A stretch of 7,665 nt of DNA. Origin: Thermoleophilia bacterium (GTDB lineage Bacteria > Actinomycetota > Thermoleophilia > Gaiellales > SKUG01). The stretch lies in NCBI GenBank assembly GCA_025964455.1, contig JAOPYU010000079.1, forward strand, positions 1-7,665, written 5' to 3'. The position numbers were made by a program, and so were the translations under genes. A model generated the notes under the pieces. The model was given only the letters and a program-made list of their open reading frames with translations, made no database searches and was not told the origin of the DNA. This document shows positions 1,658 through 7,665 of the stretch, in pieces (position 1 is the first letter of the stretch; each line of letters opens with the position of its first letter).

Positions 1658-2425
1658 TCACACATCCGCAGGCGGACGCGTCTCGCGCCACGCTGCGCGG
1701 GCGTCGCGAACGAGCGCCGGGCCGGTCGCGAGCAGGAAGGCCACGCACAGCAGCGGCAGCGCCGGCAGCGCGTCCTGTGGGCGCTCGATGACGAGGATGG
1801 TGGTGAGCAGCAGGCCGGTGGGCAGCAGCACGAGCGCGCGCCGGATCCCGAGACCCCAGCGAACGGTCGCCGCGAGCATGAGCGCGAGGAACAGGACGTC
1901 GACGATGCCGAGCCGGCCGAGGAACTCGTAGTCCACGCCGGCGACCGGAGAGGCGATCGTGGGCCAGTCGATCCAGCGAGGTTCGTCGCGGGCGCGCTCG
2001 ACCACCTGGTTGGTGACGCCCTGGTCGCTGAACACGCTCCACGCGTCGGCTGCGGGGACGAGCAGGAAGATCGGCAGCAGCCACCAGGGACGCTCGATGG
2101 CACGGACGAAGGCGACCCCGGCGAGCGAGCCGAAGCAGAGCTTGGCGACGTCCGAGGCGATGTCGACGTCCGCGACGTTCAGCACGACCACGAGCGCGAA
2201 GCTGAGCGCCACGCCCGCGAGGAGCAGCCGCATCGGGGCCGGCCAGGCGACCGCGACGCTCCAGGCGAGCGCCGTCACGAGGGCGAACCACGCGGCGTGC
2301 GACACGTAGGCCGCGACTCGGTACTCGTCGAGCGAGGTCGGGCCGGGCAGCAGCGGAGCGAGCGCGAGAGCGGCGGAGGCGACCAGCGCGAGGAGTGCGC
2401 TGCGGACGAGGACGCGGCGGGTCAC
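1658..2425 (-). CDS. Presenilin/signal-peptide-peptidase-like intramembrane aspartyl protease (putative)
   Basis: This 255-residue, almost wholly hydrophobic protein has about eight membrane helices by eye (near 5-26, 36-60, 66-84, 89-108, 113-132, 167-188, 195-214, 219-240). The last four match the presenilin/SPP (family A22) catalytic core in order. Helix 5 has Asp127 in PAADAWSVF, like the YD helix. A polar loop reading GVTNQVVERARDEPR follows. Helix 6 has Asp176 in LGRLGIVDVLF, like GLGD with G-x-x-D kept. A plain helix 7 comes next, and helix 8 begins ALPALP (219-224), the PAL motif. Such proteases cut peptides within the membrane using the two aspartates. The GTG at 2425 is one base after the upstream stop (TGACGTG). 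Longer forms back to 2626 would run through the UDG-like gene with an Arg/Ser-rich, non-coding-looking sequence. No ribosome-binding site is seen, so translation probably depends on coupling. Differences from classical members are Tyr to Ala before Asp127, the second Gly of GLGD to Val, and one fewer N-terminal helix. Alternatively it is an uncharacterised membrane protein that matches by chance. Confidence 0.62.
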   Translation of the reverse strand: MTRRVLVRSALLALVASAALALAPLLPGPTSLDEYRVAAYVSHAAWFALVTALAWSVAVAWPAPMRLLLAGVALSFALVVVLNVADVDIASDVAKLCFGSLAGVAFVRAIERPWWLLPIFLLVPAADAWSVFSDQGVTNQVVERARDEPRWIDWPTIASPVAGVDYEFLGRLGIVDVLFLALMLAATVRWGLGIRRALVLLPTGLLLTTILVIERPQDALPALPLLCVAFLLATGPALVRDARAAWRETRPPADV

Positions 2426-2426
2426 G

Positions 2427-3056
2427 TCAGAACGGGGGCTTGTCGGAGTACCACTCGCCGAGCACCCGGAACGCCTGCCAGAACGCCTGCTTGGACGCGG
2501 GCCGGTCGAGCGAATCGTCGATGTCCGGACACCAGATCGCCTCGCACGCGTGCGTCCATCGCTGGACCGCGCCGGGGGTCGGCTCCAGCCGCGATGCGTC
2601 CGGCACCTCGAGCCCGTTGATCGCATCGAGCGAGGCCTGGCCCATCACCACGAGCAGCTTGGGCTCGACGATGCGGATCTCGCGCAGCAGCCACTCCGGG
2701 CAGCGCTCGCGCATGCATGCCGTCGGGTGAGACGAGCACTTGATCAGGTTCGTGCCGTACAGGTCGAGCGGGTCCACCGCGAGGCGCTCGACGCTGCGCC
2801 GGATCGCGTCGCCCGAACGACCGTGGAAGGCGACGCCGAAGTCGAGCTCCTCGCTCGACGGCGACCACTTCACGAGCATCACGTCGGCGAGTGGATGCCC
2901 GGTGCCCAGCACGCGCGATTCGCGCGGATCGTCGTGGTCGCAGAGCCCGCACGCGGCGACGTCGTCACCGAGGGAGTGGATGTCGACGATCGCCCGATCC
3001 AGGTATTTCTGGAAGACCTGGTCGTCGTCGGCTCGGTGCGGATGCAGGTGCGCCAT
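2427..3056 (-). CDS. Divergent uracil-DNA glycosylase superfamily protein (family 4-like, Fe-S)
   Basis: This is a probable member of the uracil-DNA glycosylase superfamily, whose enzymes excise uracil from DNA in base-excision repair. It has 209 residues, close to the usual 200-220. The four-cysteine pattern of the 4Fe-4S families is present: C36-x2-C39 near the N-terminus, C107 in TNLIKC (family: NVVKC) and C119 in RERCPEWLLREI. The stretch EPKLLVVMGQASLDAI corresponds to the core strand usually reading P-x-x-hhhLG-x-x-A. Two active-site motifs are altered. The GEAPG(x)xE loop reads VKWSPSSEE (62-70), and the C-terminal HPS loop reads WCPDIDDSLDRPASK (175-189), with no histidine. It may therefore have changed activity or recognise another lesion. 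The ATG at 3056 is chosen because the only earlier start is a TTG at 3122 inside a hairpin arm. No clear ribosome-binding site is seen. The stop lies one base before the presenilin-like gene. Confidence 0.65.
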   Translation of the reverse strand: MAHLHPHRADDDQVFQKYLDRAIVDIHSLGDDVAACGLCDHDDPRESRVLGTGHPLADVMLVKWSPSSEELDFGVAFHGRSGDAIRRSVERLAVDPLDLYGTNLIKCSSHPTACMRERCPEWLLREIRIVEPKLLVVMGQASLDAINGLEVPDASRLEPTPGAVQRWTHACEAIWCPDIDDSLDRPASKQAFWQAFRVLGEWYSDKPPF

Positions 3057-3080
3057 GCCCGAGGGAGATTCGGCGTGGAC

Positions 3081-3098
3081 GGGGCAGAATCCTGCCCC
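3081..3098 (-). other. Short GC hairpin in the leader of the UDG-like gene
   Basis: GGGGCAG and CTGCCCC form a perfect 7-bp stem around a four-base loop, ending 24 bases upstream of the ATG at 3056. It could be a leader hairpin affecting translation, or part of a transcription end for the upstream gene. There is no T-run after it. Confidence 0.4.
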
Positions 3099-3110
3099 AC
3101 CCCCTCCCCG

Positions 3111-3159
3111 GTCGCCTCGCAATTATTCGCGGTACAACGACAGGAAATTGCGAGGCGAC
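3111..3159 (-). terminator. Perfect 14-bp inverted repeat downstream of the GT-PHP gene (possible terminator or operator)
   Basis: Arms 3111-3124 and 3146-3159 are perfectly complementary (GTCGCCTCGCAATT and its reverse complement) around a 21-base loop. The repeat starts 8 bases after the stop codon at 3168, which suits a 3'-end stem-loop. Its AT-rich centre is unusual in this GC-rich window. It lacks the U-run of a classic intrinsic terminator, so it may be a non-canonical terminator, an mRNA-stabilising structure, or a regulator-binding site before the UDG-like gene. Confidence 0.45.
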
Positions 3160-3167
3160 GTCGGGTG

Positions 3168-5039
3168 TCAGTCCTCGTCGGGACCCACGGCCTCGGCCGG
3201 GAGCCGCTTCGAGCGACCGGTCAGGTCGTTGACCCACTTCAGGCCCTGCAGGTAGAGCAGGCTCTTGGGACGCTTGAGGATCTCGCCTTGGCCGAGGGAG
3301 ACGAGGAACGACTCCTTGTCATCCCATGCGGGCATGTGGACAGCAGCGGTCCCCAGGCCCTGCACGACGTGCGAGTCGGACCCCGCCCCTTCGACGAGGT
3401 TGTACTTGCGCGCGAAGCGCTCCGCGTCGCGGTTGTACTGGTCGAACGGCAGGCGCGCGTTGTAGGTCTCGAAGGCGTCGATCTCGTCGAGCGTGTCGCG
3501 CAGCAGGTGCACGTCGGGGATCGTGTGGAGCCGGTCGAACGGATGCGGCACGTAGACGAGCCCGTCCTGGGCGCGAATGCGCTCGATCGTCTCGTGCCAG
3601 CTGAGGCCGGGTTCGATGCGCTCGGTCAGGAACAGGCCGATCACCTCGCCCTGGGAGGTCTTGACCTCTTCCCCGACGATCACCTGGATACCGTACTCCT
3701 CGGCCAGCTCGGCGCAGGCGAGCGCTCCGGAGATCTCGTTGTGGTCGGTGACGGCGACGGCCGTGAGACCGACCTGCTTGGCGACGTAGAGCAGCGCCTC
3801 GGGATCGGTGGCGCAGTCCCAGGAGTGGGACGTGTGCATGTGCAGGTCGATGACGCAGTTCTTCTCGTTCGCCCGCGGCGCGGCGATGTGCACCTGGATG
3901 CGCTCGCGCAGCGATTCGTACTCGCGCACGTGCGAGCGGGCGAGGTCGGCGGGATCCGGCAGGTCGATGTCCGGCGCGCGCTCGGCGAGCGCCGTCTCGA
4001 CCAGGACGTGGAGGGCCTCGGTGTCGCGGGCGTCGTCATCGGTGACGGTCGGCACGTCGACCACCGGGACGCCCGCCGCGAGCGCCTCCTCGCGGCTGCG
4101 TCGGTGCGTGCCGGCGAGCGCGAGGTAGGCACCGGCCCCGGCGAGCACGGCATCGGCCTGCTCGCGCGTCGGAGCCTCGATGGCGAGGACCCGGCCACGG
4201 AGTGCGCGCGGCACGACCGGGCGGTGGTGCACGCCGAATCTCGACAGCAGCGTCAGTGTCAGCTCCGGGCGCGCATCGAGCAGCGGGGCGAGGTCGCGGA
4301 CCAGATCGCGGACGCTCGCCTCGTCGTCCTCGCCGCGCCCGACGACCACGACCGGGCCGGTGCCGGCGCCGCGCGCACGCGTGCGGGTCGCACCCGTGGG
4401 AACGAGCGCAGGCTCCAGCTGCTCGCCGAAGGTCTCGCGGAGCAGCTCCGACGCCGCGTCCCCGTCGACCAGCCAACGGTCGACGCCATCGACGACGCGC
4501 TCACGCAGGGGCGCAGCGATCGTCGCGGCGACGGTCGGGATCGGGGCGTCGTGAAACGTCGCGACGGTCAGCCCGCTCCAGCGTCGCACCACGAAACGGG
4601 CGAGGTCGTTGGCGAGCGGGTCATGCACGTGCACGAGATCCGCGCCCGCGCGCTCGAGGATGACACGCACCGCCGCGCGCAGGCTGACCGATGCCGGACC
4701 GATCGGCAGCGGCAGCGCGAGCAGCGGCCAGTCGCGCATCGCCTCGTGCGAGCGCTTCTCGCCGGGCGCCGACGCGGCGAGCGCGAGCTCCTCGTCCTCG
4801 AGGCTGCCGAAGACGTCATCGTAGGACGCGCCCCGGGCCAGCTCCCGCAGGGCCCGGCGCGTGGCACGTCGAGCACGCAGGTCGGCGCTGGGCGCCACGA
4901 CGATCGGCTGTGGGACGGAGCTGTCGCCCGCCTCACGCAGCGCGACGAGCCCATCGGCCAGCTCGGCGACGTGCTCGTTGACCGGATGCGGCGTCGTCCA
5001 CGGCCAGGGCGAGACGAGCAGGACACGGGCATCGCTCAT
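3168..5039 (-). CDS. Glycosyltransferase-like (GT-B) and PHP-domain phosphoesterase fusion protein
   Basis: This 623-residue soluble protein has two parts. Residues 1-385 resemble a GT4-type GT-B glycosyltransferase. The N-terminal Rossmann part has LLVSPWPW, then N-x-HVAELADGL, DLVHVHDPLAND (134-145) and TFHDAP (161-166). The C-terminal half ends in REEALAAGVPVVDVP (316-330), like the donor-site helix. The first Glu of the E-x7-E motif is a Gly (310), so sugar transfer is uncertain. Residues about 396-590 form a PHP metal-dependent phosphoesterase domain with its metal motifs intact: DLHMHT (His400, His402), TDHN (Asp432, His433), GEE (457-458), PHPFDR (His499), TYNAR and GSDSH (Asp555, His557). 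TrpH/YciV-type relatives hydrolyse phosphate esters or short nucleic acids; the substrate here is unknown. The start overlaps the acyltransferase stop (ATGA), with GAGGT six bases upstream. The pairing suggests envelope sugar or lipid chemistry, which is inference. Confidence 0.85.
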   Translation of the reverse strand: MSDARVLLVSPWPWTTPHPVNEHVAELADGLVALREAGDSSVPQPIVVAPSADLRARRATRRALRELARGASYDDVFGSLEDEELALAASAPGEKRSHEAMRDWPLLALPLPIGPASVSLRAAVRVILERAGADLVHVHDPLANDLARFVVRRWSGLTVATFHDAPIPTVAATIAAPLRERVVDGVDRWLVDGDAASELLRETFGEQLEPALVPTGATRTRARGAGTGPVVVVGRGEDDEASVRDLVRDLAPLLDARPELTLTLLSRFGVHHRPVVPRALRGRVLAIEAPTREQADAVLAGAGAYLALAGTHRRSREEALAAGVPVVDVPTVTDDDARDTEALHVLVETALAERAPDIDLPDPADLARSHVREYESLRERIQVHIAAPRANEKNCVIDLHMHTSHSWDCATDPEALLYVAKQVGLTAVAVTDHNEISGALACAELAEEYGIQVIVGEEVKTSQGEVIGLFLTERIEPGLSWHETIERIRAQDGLVYVPHPFDRLHTIPDVHLLRDTLDEIDAFETYNARLPFDQYNRDAERFARKYNLVEGAGSDSHVVQGLGTAAVHMPAWDDKESFLVSLGQGEILKRPKSLLYLQGLKWVNDLTGRSKRLPAEAVGPDED

Positions 5040-6280
5040 GGCGCGACCTCACCGGGGCGAGGATGCGCCACGCCCAGCTGCAGGAGCCCTCGGGGAACGT
5101 GCGGGCGCGGCAGCCGGATGCGACCGTCGAGGACCGGCTCCTCGATGAGGTGCCAGCTCGCCCACGCGAGCGGGAAGGTCAGTGCGAGCGCGATCGCGGT
5201 GTTGGCTGTGACGGCGCCCAGGCCACCAGCGCGCGTCACGCCCGCGACGCTCATCCAGTGCAGCACGACGTAGTGCCACAGGAAGATGCCGTAGGAGATG
5301 CGACCGATGGCGAGCAGTGCGGGTGCGCCGACCACGCGCGCCAGGAGCGAGCGGTCGGGGCGCAGCGCGACGGCGAGCATCCAGCACGCCACGCCGAACG
5401 CGACGGGGGTGACCCACCACCACGTGGTCGTGACGCGGCCTCCGTCGAGCCCGTCCCAGCGCGCGCGAAGCCCGATCGCGACCAGGACCGTGCCGAGCAC
5501 GGTCCACACCAGCGGTGACATCCCGCGCACACGAGCTGCGAGGCGTCCGGAACCGGAGAACGCGGCGACCAGCACGATCGCCGCGAAGATCCCCGCCCCG
5601 AAGTTGTCGAGGTACCCGAGCGCCGTGACGCGCGGCTCAAGACCGGCGACCGACAGCTCCGGCGAGCGGCGCACGAGGCAGCCGACCACGATGCCCGCCA
5701 CCGGCACCGACATGAGCAGACCGGCGCGCACCGCGAGCGACGGAAGCCGGCGCACGATCGGCGCCAGCCCGAGCATGGCGAGCGGCAGCAGCAGGTAGAA
5801 GCCGAGCTCCACGGTCAGCGTCCAGGTCACGGGCAGCAGGTGCACGCCGCCGGGCGCGAGGTTCTGCACGAGCAGCGCGTTGACCACGACCTGCTCGACG
5901 CTCGTCTGGTTGATCGACACGGTTGCGGCTGCGACGAGCATCACGAGCATGTAGAGCGGCCAGATGCGCCGGAAGCGGCGCACCGCGAATCGACGCACGC
6001 CGGGGCGCGAGGCATCGGGAATCAGCATCCACCGCACGAACGGCAACGCGAGCAGCAGGCCGCTCAGCACGAAGAACACGTTGGTGCGGAGCGTCAGGTT
6101 GCGGAAGGCGCCGTGGACCACGTCCGGCATCCCCGCCACGAACGCCGGATCGGTCGGGCTGGTCGCCGTCGCCCACCCGGTCGCCAGATAGGCGTGGAAG
6201 GCCACGATCGCGAGCGCTGCAAGCGCGCGGAACCCGTCCATTCCCGGGAATCGCCGTGGCATCTCGTTCAGCTCGGACAT
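5036..6280 (-). CDS. Acyltransferase family 3 membrane protein (OafA/YrhL-like)
   Basis: This integral membrane O-acyltransferase has 414 residues and about ten membrane helices. The family moves acyl groups (acetyl, succinyl and similar) onto sugars of polysaccharides, glycolipids or antibiotics. Family marks are MDGFRALAALAIVAFH (14-29) with the presumed catalytic His29, FFVLSGLLLALPF (69-81), RRFRRIWPLYML (101-112) with the conserved Arg pair, TWTLTVELGFYLLLPL (152-167), ISYGIFLWH (328-336) and HLIEEPVL (377-384). A short basic tail (RPHVPRGLLQLG...) lacks the SGNH domain of some OafA proteins. The ATG at 6280 is chosen because homology begins just after it. ATGs at 6304 and 6262 are also possible, and earlier in-frame sequence back to 6583 is low-complexity and crosses the hairpins and the end of ino1. 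It overlaps the GT-PHP gene, whose product may make or process its acceptor. Confidence 0.9.
   Translation of the reverse strand: MSELNEMPRRFPGMDGFRALAALAIVAFHAYLATGWATATSPTDPAFVAGMPDVVHGAFRNLTLRTNVFFVLSGLLLALPFVRWMLIPDASRPGVRRFAVRRFRRIWPLYMLVMLVAAATVSINQTSVEQVVVNALLVQNLAPGGVHLLPVTWTLTVELGFYLLLPLAMLGLAPIVRRLPSLAVRAGLLMSVPVAGIVVGCLVRRSPELSVAGLEPRVTALGYLDNFGAGIFAAIVLVAAFSGSGRLAARVRGMSPLVWTVLGTVLVAIGLRARWDGLDGGRVTTTWWWVTPVAFGVACWMLAVALRPDRSLLARVVGAPALLAIGRISYGIFLWHYVVLHWMSVAGVTRAGGLGAVTANTAIALALTFPLAWASWHLIEEPVLDGRIRLPRPHVPRGLLQLGVAHPRPGEVAP
5046..5050 (-). promoter_or_regulatory. Ribosome-binding site of the GT-PHP gene
   Basis: GAGGT on the minus strand is six bases upstream of the ATG at 5039, within the last codons of the acyltransferase gene. 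It fixes the start and supports translational coupling of the two genes. Confidence 0.55.
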
Positions 6281-6288
6281 CGCCGCCA

Positions 6289-6294
6289 AGCATA
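6289..6294 (-). promoter_or_regulatory. Possible -10 box of the acyltransferase gene
   Basis: TATGCT on the minus strand fits TANNNT and lies 8 bases upstream of the ATG at 6280, so a transcript from it would have almost no leader. It sits below the two hairpins that probably end the ino1 transcript, where a new promoter would be expected. No good -35 hexamer is seen. Confidence 0.25.
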
Positions 6295-6342
6295 CCGACG
6301 GCATCCACGCCGCCCCGCCGTCCTGGTCCCGCCCGCCCCGGC

Positions 6343-6391
6343 GATTTCGGTGACGTTGGCCGCGCCACAGCCGGCCAACGTCACCAAAATC
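6343..6391 (-). terminator. Second (distal) hairpin after ino1: 19 of 20 bp paired
   Basis: Arms 6349-6362 and 6372-6385 (GGTGACGTTGGCCG and its reverse complement) form a perfect 14-bp stem around a nine-base loop. After one mismatch five more pairs follow (GATTT 6343-6347 with AAATC 6387-6391). It lies 74 bases beyond the ino1 stop and before the acyltransferase start, so a terminator or insulating 3' structure is the simplest reading. No U-run follows. A palindromic operator is the alternative. Confidence 0.5.
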
Positions 6392-6405
6392 AGGGGCAGA
6401 CGAGC

Positions 6406-6440
6406 GAGGGGCCCGCCGCGGCGTTCGCGACGGACCCCTC
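6406..6440 (-). terminator. First (proximal) hairpin after ino1: 15-bp stem, 5-base loop
   Basis: Positions 6406-6420 pair with 6426-6440 around GCGTT (plus-strand reading). Thirteen pairs are Watson-Crick. The other two (6416/6430 and 6412/6434) are C-A on the plus strand but G-U in RNA made from the minus strand, so the stem is continuous only in ino1-sense RNA. It begins 25 bases after the ino1 stop. This fits an intrinsic-like terminator or 3' stabilising stem of the ino1 mRNA, though without a clean U-run. Confidence 0.55.
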
Positions 6441-6464
6441 CCCCTTCGGTGACCCACGCGTCGA

Positions 6465-7665
6465 TCAGGCGTGTGCCGGGATCGGTGCGCCGACCGCGTC
6501 GGCGGCCAGGTGGTAGTCGATGCCACCGTCGCGACGACGATCCTCGCCGGTGCGCTCAGATGACTCGCGGCCGGCCGGGCCACCCGCGATGAACGCCTCG
6601 AGGTGCTCGCGCGCGATGTCGTCGTCGTGCTGCCACGGCGGCGACTTCATGAGGTACGCGCTCGGCCACTCGAGTGCGCCGCCGATCTTGCGATCCATCG
6701 CCGCCTTGGCGAAGCGGACCGCGTCGATCGTGATGCCCGCCGAGTTCGGCGAGTCGACGACCTCGAGCTTGACCTCCATCATGAGCGGCACGCCGCCGAA
6801 GGCTTCGCCCTCGACGCGGATGTGCGCCCACTTGCGGTCCTCGAGCCACGGCACGTAGTCGCTCGGCCCGACGTAGACGTCCTTGGCCGGGATCTCGTAC
6901 GGCAGCACGCTCGTGACCGCATTGGTCTTGGAGACCTTCTTGCTCTCGAGGCGCTCGCGCTCGAGCATGTTGCGGAAGTCGGAGTTGCCACCGACGTTCA
7001 GCTGGCTCGTGCGCAGGATCTTGACCCCACGGTCACGGAAGAGCTGGGCGATGCGGCGATGCAGGATCGTCGCGCCCACCTGGCTCTTGATGTCGTCACC
7101 GATGATCGGCAGGTTCGCCTCTTCGAAGCGCGCCCGCCATTCGGGACGACCCGCGATGAACACGGGGATGCAGTTCACGAAGCCGGTGCCGGCCTTGAGT
7201 GCTGCATCCGCGTAGAACTCGACGGCCTGCTGGCTGCCCACGGGGAGCAGGTTGATCAGGACGTCGGCCTTGGTGTCCCTCAGGACCTGGACCACGTCGA
7301 CGGGCTCGGCCTCCGACAGCTCGACGACCTCGGAGAGGTACTTGCCGATGCCATCGAGCGTCGGGCCGCGGTGCACGGTCACCCCTGCGTTCGCCACCTC
7401 GGAGAACACGACGGTGTTGTTCTCACCCGCGAAGATCGCCTCGGAGAGGTCCAGCCCCACCTTGGCCGCCGCGACGTCAAACGCCGCGACGAACTCGATG
7501 TCGCCCACGCCGTAGCCGGCGATCGTGTGGTGCATGAGGCCCGGGACCTCTTCCGTGGCGCCCGCGTAGTGCGTGACTCCCTGGACGAGGCTCGAGGCGC
7601 AGTTGCCGATACCGGCGATCGCGACGCGGACCTTGCCGCTGTTAGGGACCGGGGTCCCCGGCTGG
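6465..7665 (-). CDS. ino1: Inositol-3-phosphate synthase (partial, N-terminus beyond right edge)
   Basis: It converts glucose 6-phosphate to 1D-myo-inositol 3-phosphate with bound NAD+, the first step toward phosphatidylinositol, mycothiol and inositol solutes in Actinomycetota. The frame is open to the right edge and shows 399 residues. The NAD-binding loop is [18 protein letters not shown] near the visible N-terminus, followed by [15 protein letters not shown]. Further family blocks are [62 protein letters not shown] (with the lysine-rich active-site segment), [16 protein letters not shown] and LMKSPP. The visible part is already as long as typical actinobacterial enzymes (about 360), because it carries a roughly 32-residue polar tail after EAFIAGG ([15 protein letters not shown]...). 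The true start cannot be seen; only about ten residues precede the NAD-binding strand, so little may be missing. Two hairpins follow the stop, so it probably ends its transcript. Confidence 0.95.

Follow-up and report, generated by a model that had tools for sequence, protein, structure and literature searches.

A candidate presenilin-type intramembrane protease from a Thermoleophilia bacterium, encoded beside a gene of the uracil-DNA glycosylase superfamily

Human presenilin is an enzyme connected with Alzheimer's disease, and work on presenilin-type proteases has centred mainly on eukaryotes and archaea. A stretch of DNA from a Thermoleophilia bacterium (contig JAOPYU010000079.1, analysed over its whole 7,665 nt and called the window below) raises the question of whether bacteria encode such proteases as well. 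The initial annotation read one membrane protein of the window as a presenilin/signal peptide peptidase (SPP)-like aspartyl protease, and the sequence comparisons and predicted models presented here support this reading. In our view the gene probably encodes an intramembrane diaspartyl protease built on the presenilin/SPP fold, which would be oriented like SPP and is paired with a protein of uracil-DNA glycosylase (UDG) fold. The coordinates originally assigned to the gene hold, but its strand had to be corrected: the open reading frame lies on the minus strand (start GTG 2425-2423, stop 1660-1658). Read on the plus strand, 1658-2425 does not give this protein.

Fold, motifs and family of the protein

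The window protein is predicted to adopt the presenilin/SPP fold, and two separate models of the family match the fold of presenilin. Together with this fold, it displays two further characters of the superfamily, a conserved pair of aspartates in successive transmembrane (TM) helices (113-132 and 174-190) and a PAL motif ahead of the last helix. The predicted structure contains eight helices long enough to span the membrane (3-25, 32-58, 65-84, 88-107, 113-132, 174-190, 194-214 and 222-249), in line with the estimate of about eight made at the outset. Asp127 lies in ADAWSVF on helix 5, Asp176 in GIVDVLF at the start of helix 6, and helix 8 begins with PALP, within ALPALP. The loop of residues 133-173 contains two short predicted strands (156-159 and 170-173) and a G136/T138 motif.

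Conservation was analysed on an alignment of 262 rows, made of the 67 rows of alignment A1 (64 from the window's subfamily and 3 from a sister family), 118 further sister rows and 77 rows from genome loci. The two aspartates are almost invariant (Table 1), as are G136 (262), G173 (260) and the PALP motif (P221 258, A222 257, L223 256, P224 260). Within the 64 window-subfamily rows, D127, G136, G173, D176, P221, L223 and P224 do not vary at all. The motifs are thus near-invariant both in the subfamily and over all 262 sequences, which argues that they did not arise by chance. The order of these motifs and their placement in helices, as first described, were confirmed, and the invariance expected among homologues holds almost throughout.

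All departures at D127, G173, D176 and P224 are found in two highly diverged members, L079, which lacks both aspartates, and L080, which lacks the second. P221 is replaced in L024, L026, L038 and L068. Four further diverged members (L086, L099, L114 and L116) lie 3' of a UDG-like gene in genomes without a match to profile A2; on visual inspection, both aspartates are present in L086 and L099, and the second is missing from L114 and L116. Overall, 77 of the 81 genomic members keep both. The remaining L079, L080, L114 and L116, in which one or both catalytic aspartates are lost and the UDG-like gene still adjoins, are possible pseudoproteases to judge from their sequences.

Taken alone, the window protein is not recognized as a member of a known family. 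It had no Presenilin, A22B or SPP match in Pfam, where FecCD alone was returned (E 0.69) and none of the curated cut-offs of PF01080, PF04258 and PF06550 was reached; it had no match in NCBIfam, and phmmer against the PDB returned a single match, to NADH-ubiquinone oxidoreductase chain 5 (E 0.067). In contrast, four family profiles placed presenilins first when searched against the PDB at E ≤10. The mixed profile A8 retrieved PSEN2 (5.5e-5) and PSEN1 (1.3e-4) and no others, and A1 likewise retrieved PSEN1 (9.4e-4) and PSEN2 (2.4e-3) and no others. A9, built from the window subfamily alone, retrieved PSEN1 (0.0055), PSEN2 (0.033) and an unrelated protein (1.6), and A2 retrieved PSEN1 (0.028), followed by an unrelated protein (0.95). 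The Pfam family matched by most members at E ≤10 is also Presenilin, with 12 of 67 (best 1.1e-4) and, in the second set, 33 of 121 (best 5.7e-4). Similar best values were given by AbrB (4.7e-4, one member) and DUF4267 (5.2e-4), and one relative scored 6.1 bits against PF01080, whose curated cut-off is 34.3. The proposed likeness of the loop after the first catalytic helix to presenilin LVETAQERNE stood as far as register is concerned, since hmmsearch aligned this stretch in register with presenilin-2, but it is weak when taken alone (6.8 bits, i-Evalue 51).

The link to archaeal SPP was evaluated by comparing profiles with 64 of the 120 listed archaeal PF06550 fragments, using 150 block-shuffled controls. 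The sister family scored 34.1 against a shuffled maximum of 26.9 (reversed 13.2) and the 262-row alignment 33.7 against 27.3 (reversed 12.7). A1, at 26.5, stayed below its shuffled maximum of 32.3, and the 64 window-subfamily rows reached 25.6, judged by score against the shuffles of A1. Because some alignments beat all shuffled controls while A1 and the window-subfamily rows do not, this link is suggestive only, and weaker than that to presenilins. PF06550 itself was found in none of 3 genomes and none of 246 genomes of the phylum; archaeal control genomes were matched.

The family extends well beyond the window. A first search from the window protein collected 67 proteins including its own (7999 candidates scored), and a search from the distant member P0069 collected 2580 at E ≤0.01 (7998 scored). 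Among the matches listed, relatives are named hypothetical protein or uncharacterized membrane protein SirB2. The two bacterial groups are homologous (hhalign 99.7%, E 1.5e-26 after removal of shared rows); this value replaces an E of 5.8e-58 between A1 and A2, which was inflated because these alignments have three rows in common. A pattern search in named genomes gave 80 matches, of which 3 encode relatives, all in metagenome-assembled genomes of Thermoleophilia bacteria. Profile A2 is present in 12 of the 246 genomes of the phylum, in 73 of 149 genomes of the class to which the nearest named relative belongs and in 7 of 39 genomes of a second class, the window's own subfamily (A1 score >300 bits) being found in just 1 of the 149. 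This bacterial branch of the presenilin/SPP fold is large and has no curated Pfam or NCBIfam family as tested. No report of a bacterial presenilin family, nor of a connection between presenilin and UDG, was found in titles and abstract openings of the open-licence literature, subscription papers being outside this scope.

Membrane orientation

The distribution of charges gives a first indication of topology. Lysine and arginine are richer in the short loops and C-terminus on the putative inside than in the opposite short loops in all 262 proteins, and in 260 when the C-terminus is not counted; this count covers neither the N-terminus nor the long loop between helices 5 and 6. In four loci (L039, L041, L045 and L060) that loop is longer by about 100 residues. 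A Pfam scan of two of these inserts gave no match, and a profile of all four gave 35 PDB matches (E 1.5e-6 over whole sequences, weak for individual domains), most of which, we assume, are proteins containing fibronectin type III (FnIII) domains. We take such domains to be of an extracytoplasmic kind. At the other side, P0170 is a natural UDG-protease fusion with its UDG-like domain ahead of helix 1, and P0078, from the sister family, carries a VapB antitoxin domain after its last helix; both domains are of cytoplasmic kinds. Charge bias, FnIII-like inserts and terminal domains agree on the orientation of SPP, and we infer that both termini are cytoplasmic and that the helix 5-6 loop lies outside. 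In presenilin the corresponding loop lies in the cytoplasm.

The predicted model of P0170 has five stretches of pLDDT (predicted local distance difference test) <50 in its UDG half, whose UDG rows were misaligned and left out; the UDG half is poor for this reason, so the packing of the two halves cannot be deduced from it. In L016, a second copy in genome G001, the presenilin-like domain ends an open frame of 576 residues, whose N-terminal part weakly resembles GGDEF (E 0.032).

The UDG-like gene and its neighbourhood

The initial annotation did not mention the gene directly upstream of the protease candidate, which encodes a UDG-like protein (PF03167, E 2.2e-11 with the longer open reading frame 2427-3122; 1ui0, E 3.7e-11). 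A single base separates its stop codon from the protease GTG. Among 79 distinct loci (L011 being a repeat of L001), a UDG-like gene lies directly 5' of the protease on the same strand in 75, the distance to where the protease match begins ranging from -52 to +231 nt; two of the matches, at L014 (43 bits) and L015 (40 bits), are weak. The other loci comprise two contig ends (L029 and L051), L016 with its GGDEF-like frame and L012 with a different upstream gene. Counted by genome, the pairing is seen in 71 of the 73 class genomes, all represented in the loci, and the two exceptions are cut contigs.

The partner does not look like an active glycosylase. In the 29 of 75 partners that were aligned, the glutamate position of GEAPG, which we take to be motif A, is occupied by Y, H, F or W, and the histidine position of HPS, presumably motif B, by T, V or C; none has D/E at the former or H at the latter. 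Motif A was placed through the 1ui0 alignment and motif B, beyond that alignment, by eye. Each of the four iron-sulphur-type cysteines is kept in 11-13 of the 29. The partners nevertheless have invariant residues of their own (GHP, K64, E71, G75-V76, G80-R81, G83, P178, D181 and P208-P209), which argues that the protein is constrained for some function.

By the genome counts, the UDG-like gene is not a dedicated partner of the protease. It is present in 140 of the 149 class genomes, with one match each except for a second, partial one in G295, and it occurs in 71 of 73 genomes with the protease versus 69 of 76 in which no protease was detected (p 0.17). Forty of these 69 were examined: four hold the diverged protease-like genes L086, L099, L114 and L116 downstream, and of the other 36 at least four (L109-L112) end <650 nt downstream of the UDG-like gene and are uninformative.

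In the window, a glycosyltransferase/PHP gene, the UDG-like gene, the protease and an ABC ATPase follow one another on the same strand (Table 1). Elsewhere, one upstream gene, alike in those sampled, is common to 22 of 38 loci and one downstream group to 41 of 70. A gene judged RumA-like by eye (2 upstream and 4 downstream copies sampled) is upstream in a group of 14 of the 38 loci and downstream in the group of 41 of 70, so that it often adjoins the pair, on one side or the other; RumA is an RNA uracil methyltransferase. A PADLOC search for anti-phage defence and a comparison with plasmids gave no match.

These data leave room for the view that the pairing is inherited gene order without functional meaning, which would affect the role of the partner only. 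All loci come from related bacteria, the flanking genes are shared too, so that the gene block is partly ancestral, and no co-occurrence signal was obtained. Against this, the pair outlasts some rearrangement, staying together while the RumA-like gene changes side (14 versus 41 loci), its spacing is tight and it is fused in P0170. We give slightly less than even weight to mere inheritance.

Table 1. Positions of the protease candidate, its putative functional sites and the surrounding genes in the window
Feature	Position	Strand	Remarks
Presenilin-like intramembrane aspartyl protease candidate	1658..2425	minus	255 aa, 8 predicted helices
Asp127 codon, putative first catalytic aspartate (= presenilin TM6 Asp)	2045..2047	minus	kept in 261/262
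Asp176 codon in GIVD, putative second catalytic aspartate (= presenilin TM7 GxGD)	1898..1900	minus	kept in 260/262
PALP codons, residues 221-224, PAL-type motif opening last helix	1754..1765	minus	conservation in 262 sequences
Loop between catalytic helices, residues 133-173	1907..2029	minus	predicted strands; loop charges; FnIII-like inserts in 4 relatives
UDG-superfamily gene, directly upstream of protease gene	2427..3059	minus	210 aa; PF03167, 1ui0
DrrA-type ABC ATPase	655-1620	minus	ordinary neighbour
Glycosyltransferase-like + PHP-domain protein, upstream of UDG-like gene	3168-5039	minus	
Acyltransferase-3 membrane protein	5036-6583	minus	ordinary neighbour
Myo-inositol-1-phosphate synthase	6465-7535	minus	ordinary neighbour

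Possible function and comparison with known proteases

From the computed fold, active-site conservation and gene pairing we infer proteolysis, orientation, a substrate class and a role for the partner. Asp127 and Asp176 would activate a water molecule to cleave a transmembrane helix, while the short strands that precede helix 6, together with the PALP that opens helix 8, would position the unwound substrate, as in gamma-secretase. Because the termini would be cytoplasmic and the loop between the catalytic helices outside, as in SPP, the protease would in nature most likely act on helices whose N-terminus faces inward, for instance type II proteins or remnants of signal peptides. The two genes are probably co-translated, and the UDG-fold protein, devoid of the usual catalytic residues, may sit at the cytoplasmic face as an adaptor or sensor. 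A more specific and rather doubtful proposal is a module of regulated intramembrane proteolysis, in which this protein would sense a nucleobase, a nucleic acid or the redox state and switch the SPP-oriented protease; the redox option is based on the iron-sulphur-type cysteines kept by some partners.

The protein could also use the presenilin fold without cutting, acting instead as a channel, a receptor or a scaffold, the UDG-like partner perhaps being what it serves; its aspartates would then have some other purpose, for instance proton or ion binding. The GxGD glycine is absent from all 262 sequences, and four of 81 members have lost catalytic aspartates yet keep the gene pairing, but the protein evolves fast and its best conserved positions include Asp127, Asp176 and PALP, and we hold this explanation to be improbable. 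That an unrelated polytopic membrane protein resembles A22 enzymes by chance, as the missing single-protein matches and the weak archaeal SPP match might suggest, is scarcely credible given the two models, the four profiles and the motif conservation.

A large bacterial branch of eight-helix GxxD proteins with SPP-like orientation would supply small relatives of the Alzheimer protease. It would test which parts of the active site are essential and bear on the origin of the superfamily, and the gene pair would give a first handle on the control of a prokaryotic presenilin.

The window protein differs from presenilin (PF01080, MEROPS A22A; PSEN1/PSEN2) in being bacterial, in its small size (~255 aa) and in having eight helices rather than nine; its family lacks YD, has GxxD instead of GxGD and would be oriented oppositely. 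It differs from SPP/SPPL (PF04258, A22B; SPPL2a 9k93) in helix number and by the absence of a Pfam match, YD and GxGD. Archaeal PSH/MCMJR1 (PF06550; 4hyc, 4y6k) is weakly linked to it in sequence, and PSH has YD and GMGD in the alignment. In an excerpt of PMC2947513, archaeal MCMJR1, which has YD and GxGD, is presented as a presenilin-like protease, the PAL motif is named, and presenilin-like enzymes outside eukaryotes are said not to have been demonstrated earlier. An excerpt of PMC7593790 counts aspartyl enzymes among bacterial intramembrane proteases, the example given being eukaryotic presenilin. As to the partner, it shares the UDG superfamily domain with type-4 UDG and UdgX, stays below the cut-offs of both NCBIfam models and lacks the family-4 catalytic residues.

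Measured against the signatures of MEROPS A22, the residue preceding Asp127, tyrosine in the YD of TM6, is V in 175 sequences, A in 71, I in 9, T in 3, L in 2, S in 2 and Y in none. In the TM7 GxGD motif, G173 is kept in 260 of 262, and position 175 is P in 146, V in 65, S in 38, T in 8, A in 5 and G in none; the predicted helices number eight instead of nine. The fold and the conserved aspartates and PALP thus speak for the A22-type protease originally proposed, but not for strict A22/GxGD membership. The family is not filed there because these strict signatures are lacking, though it most likely works as an A22 GxGD protease does.
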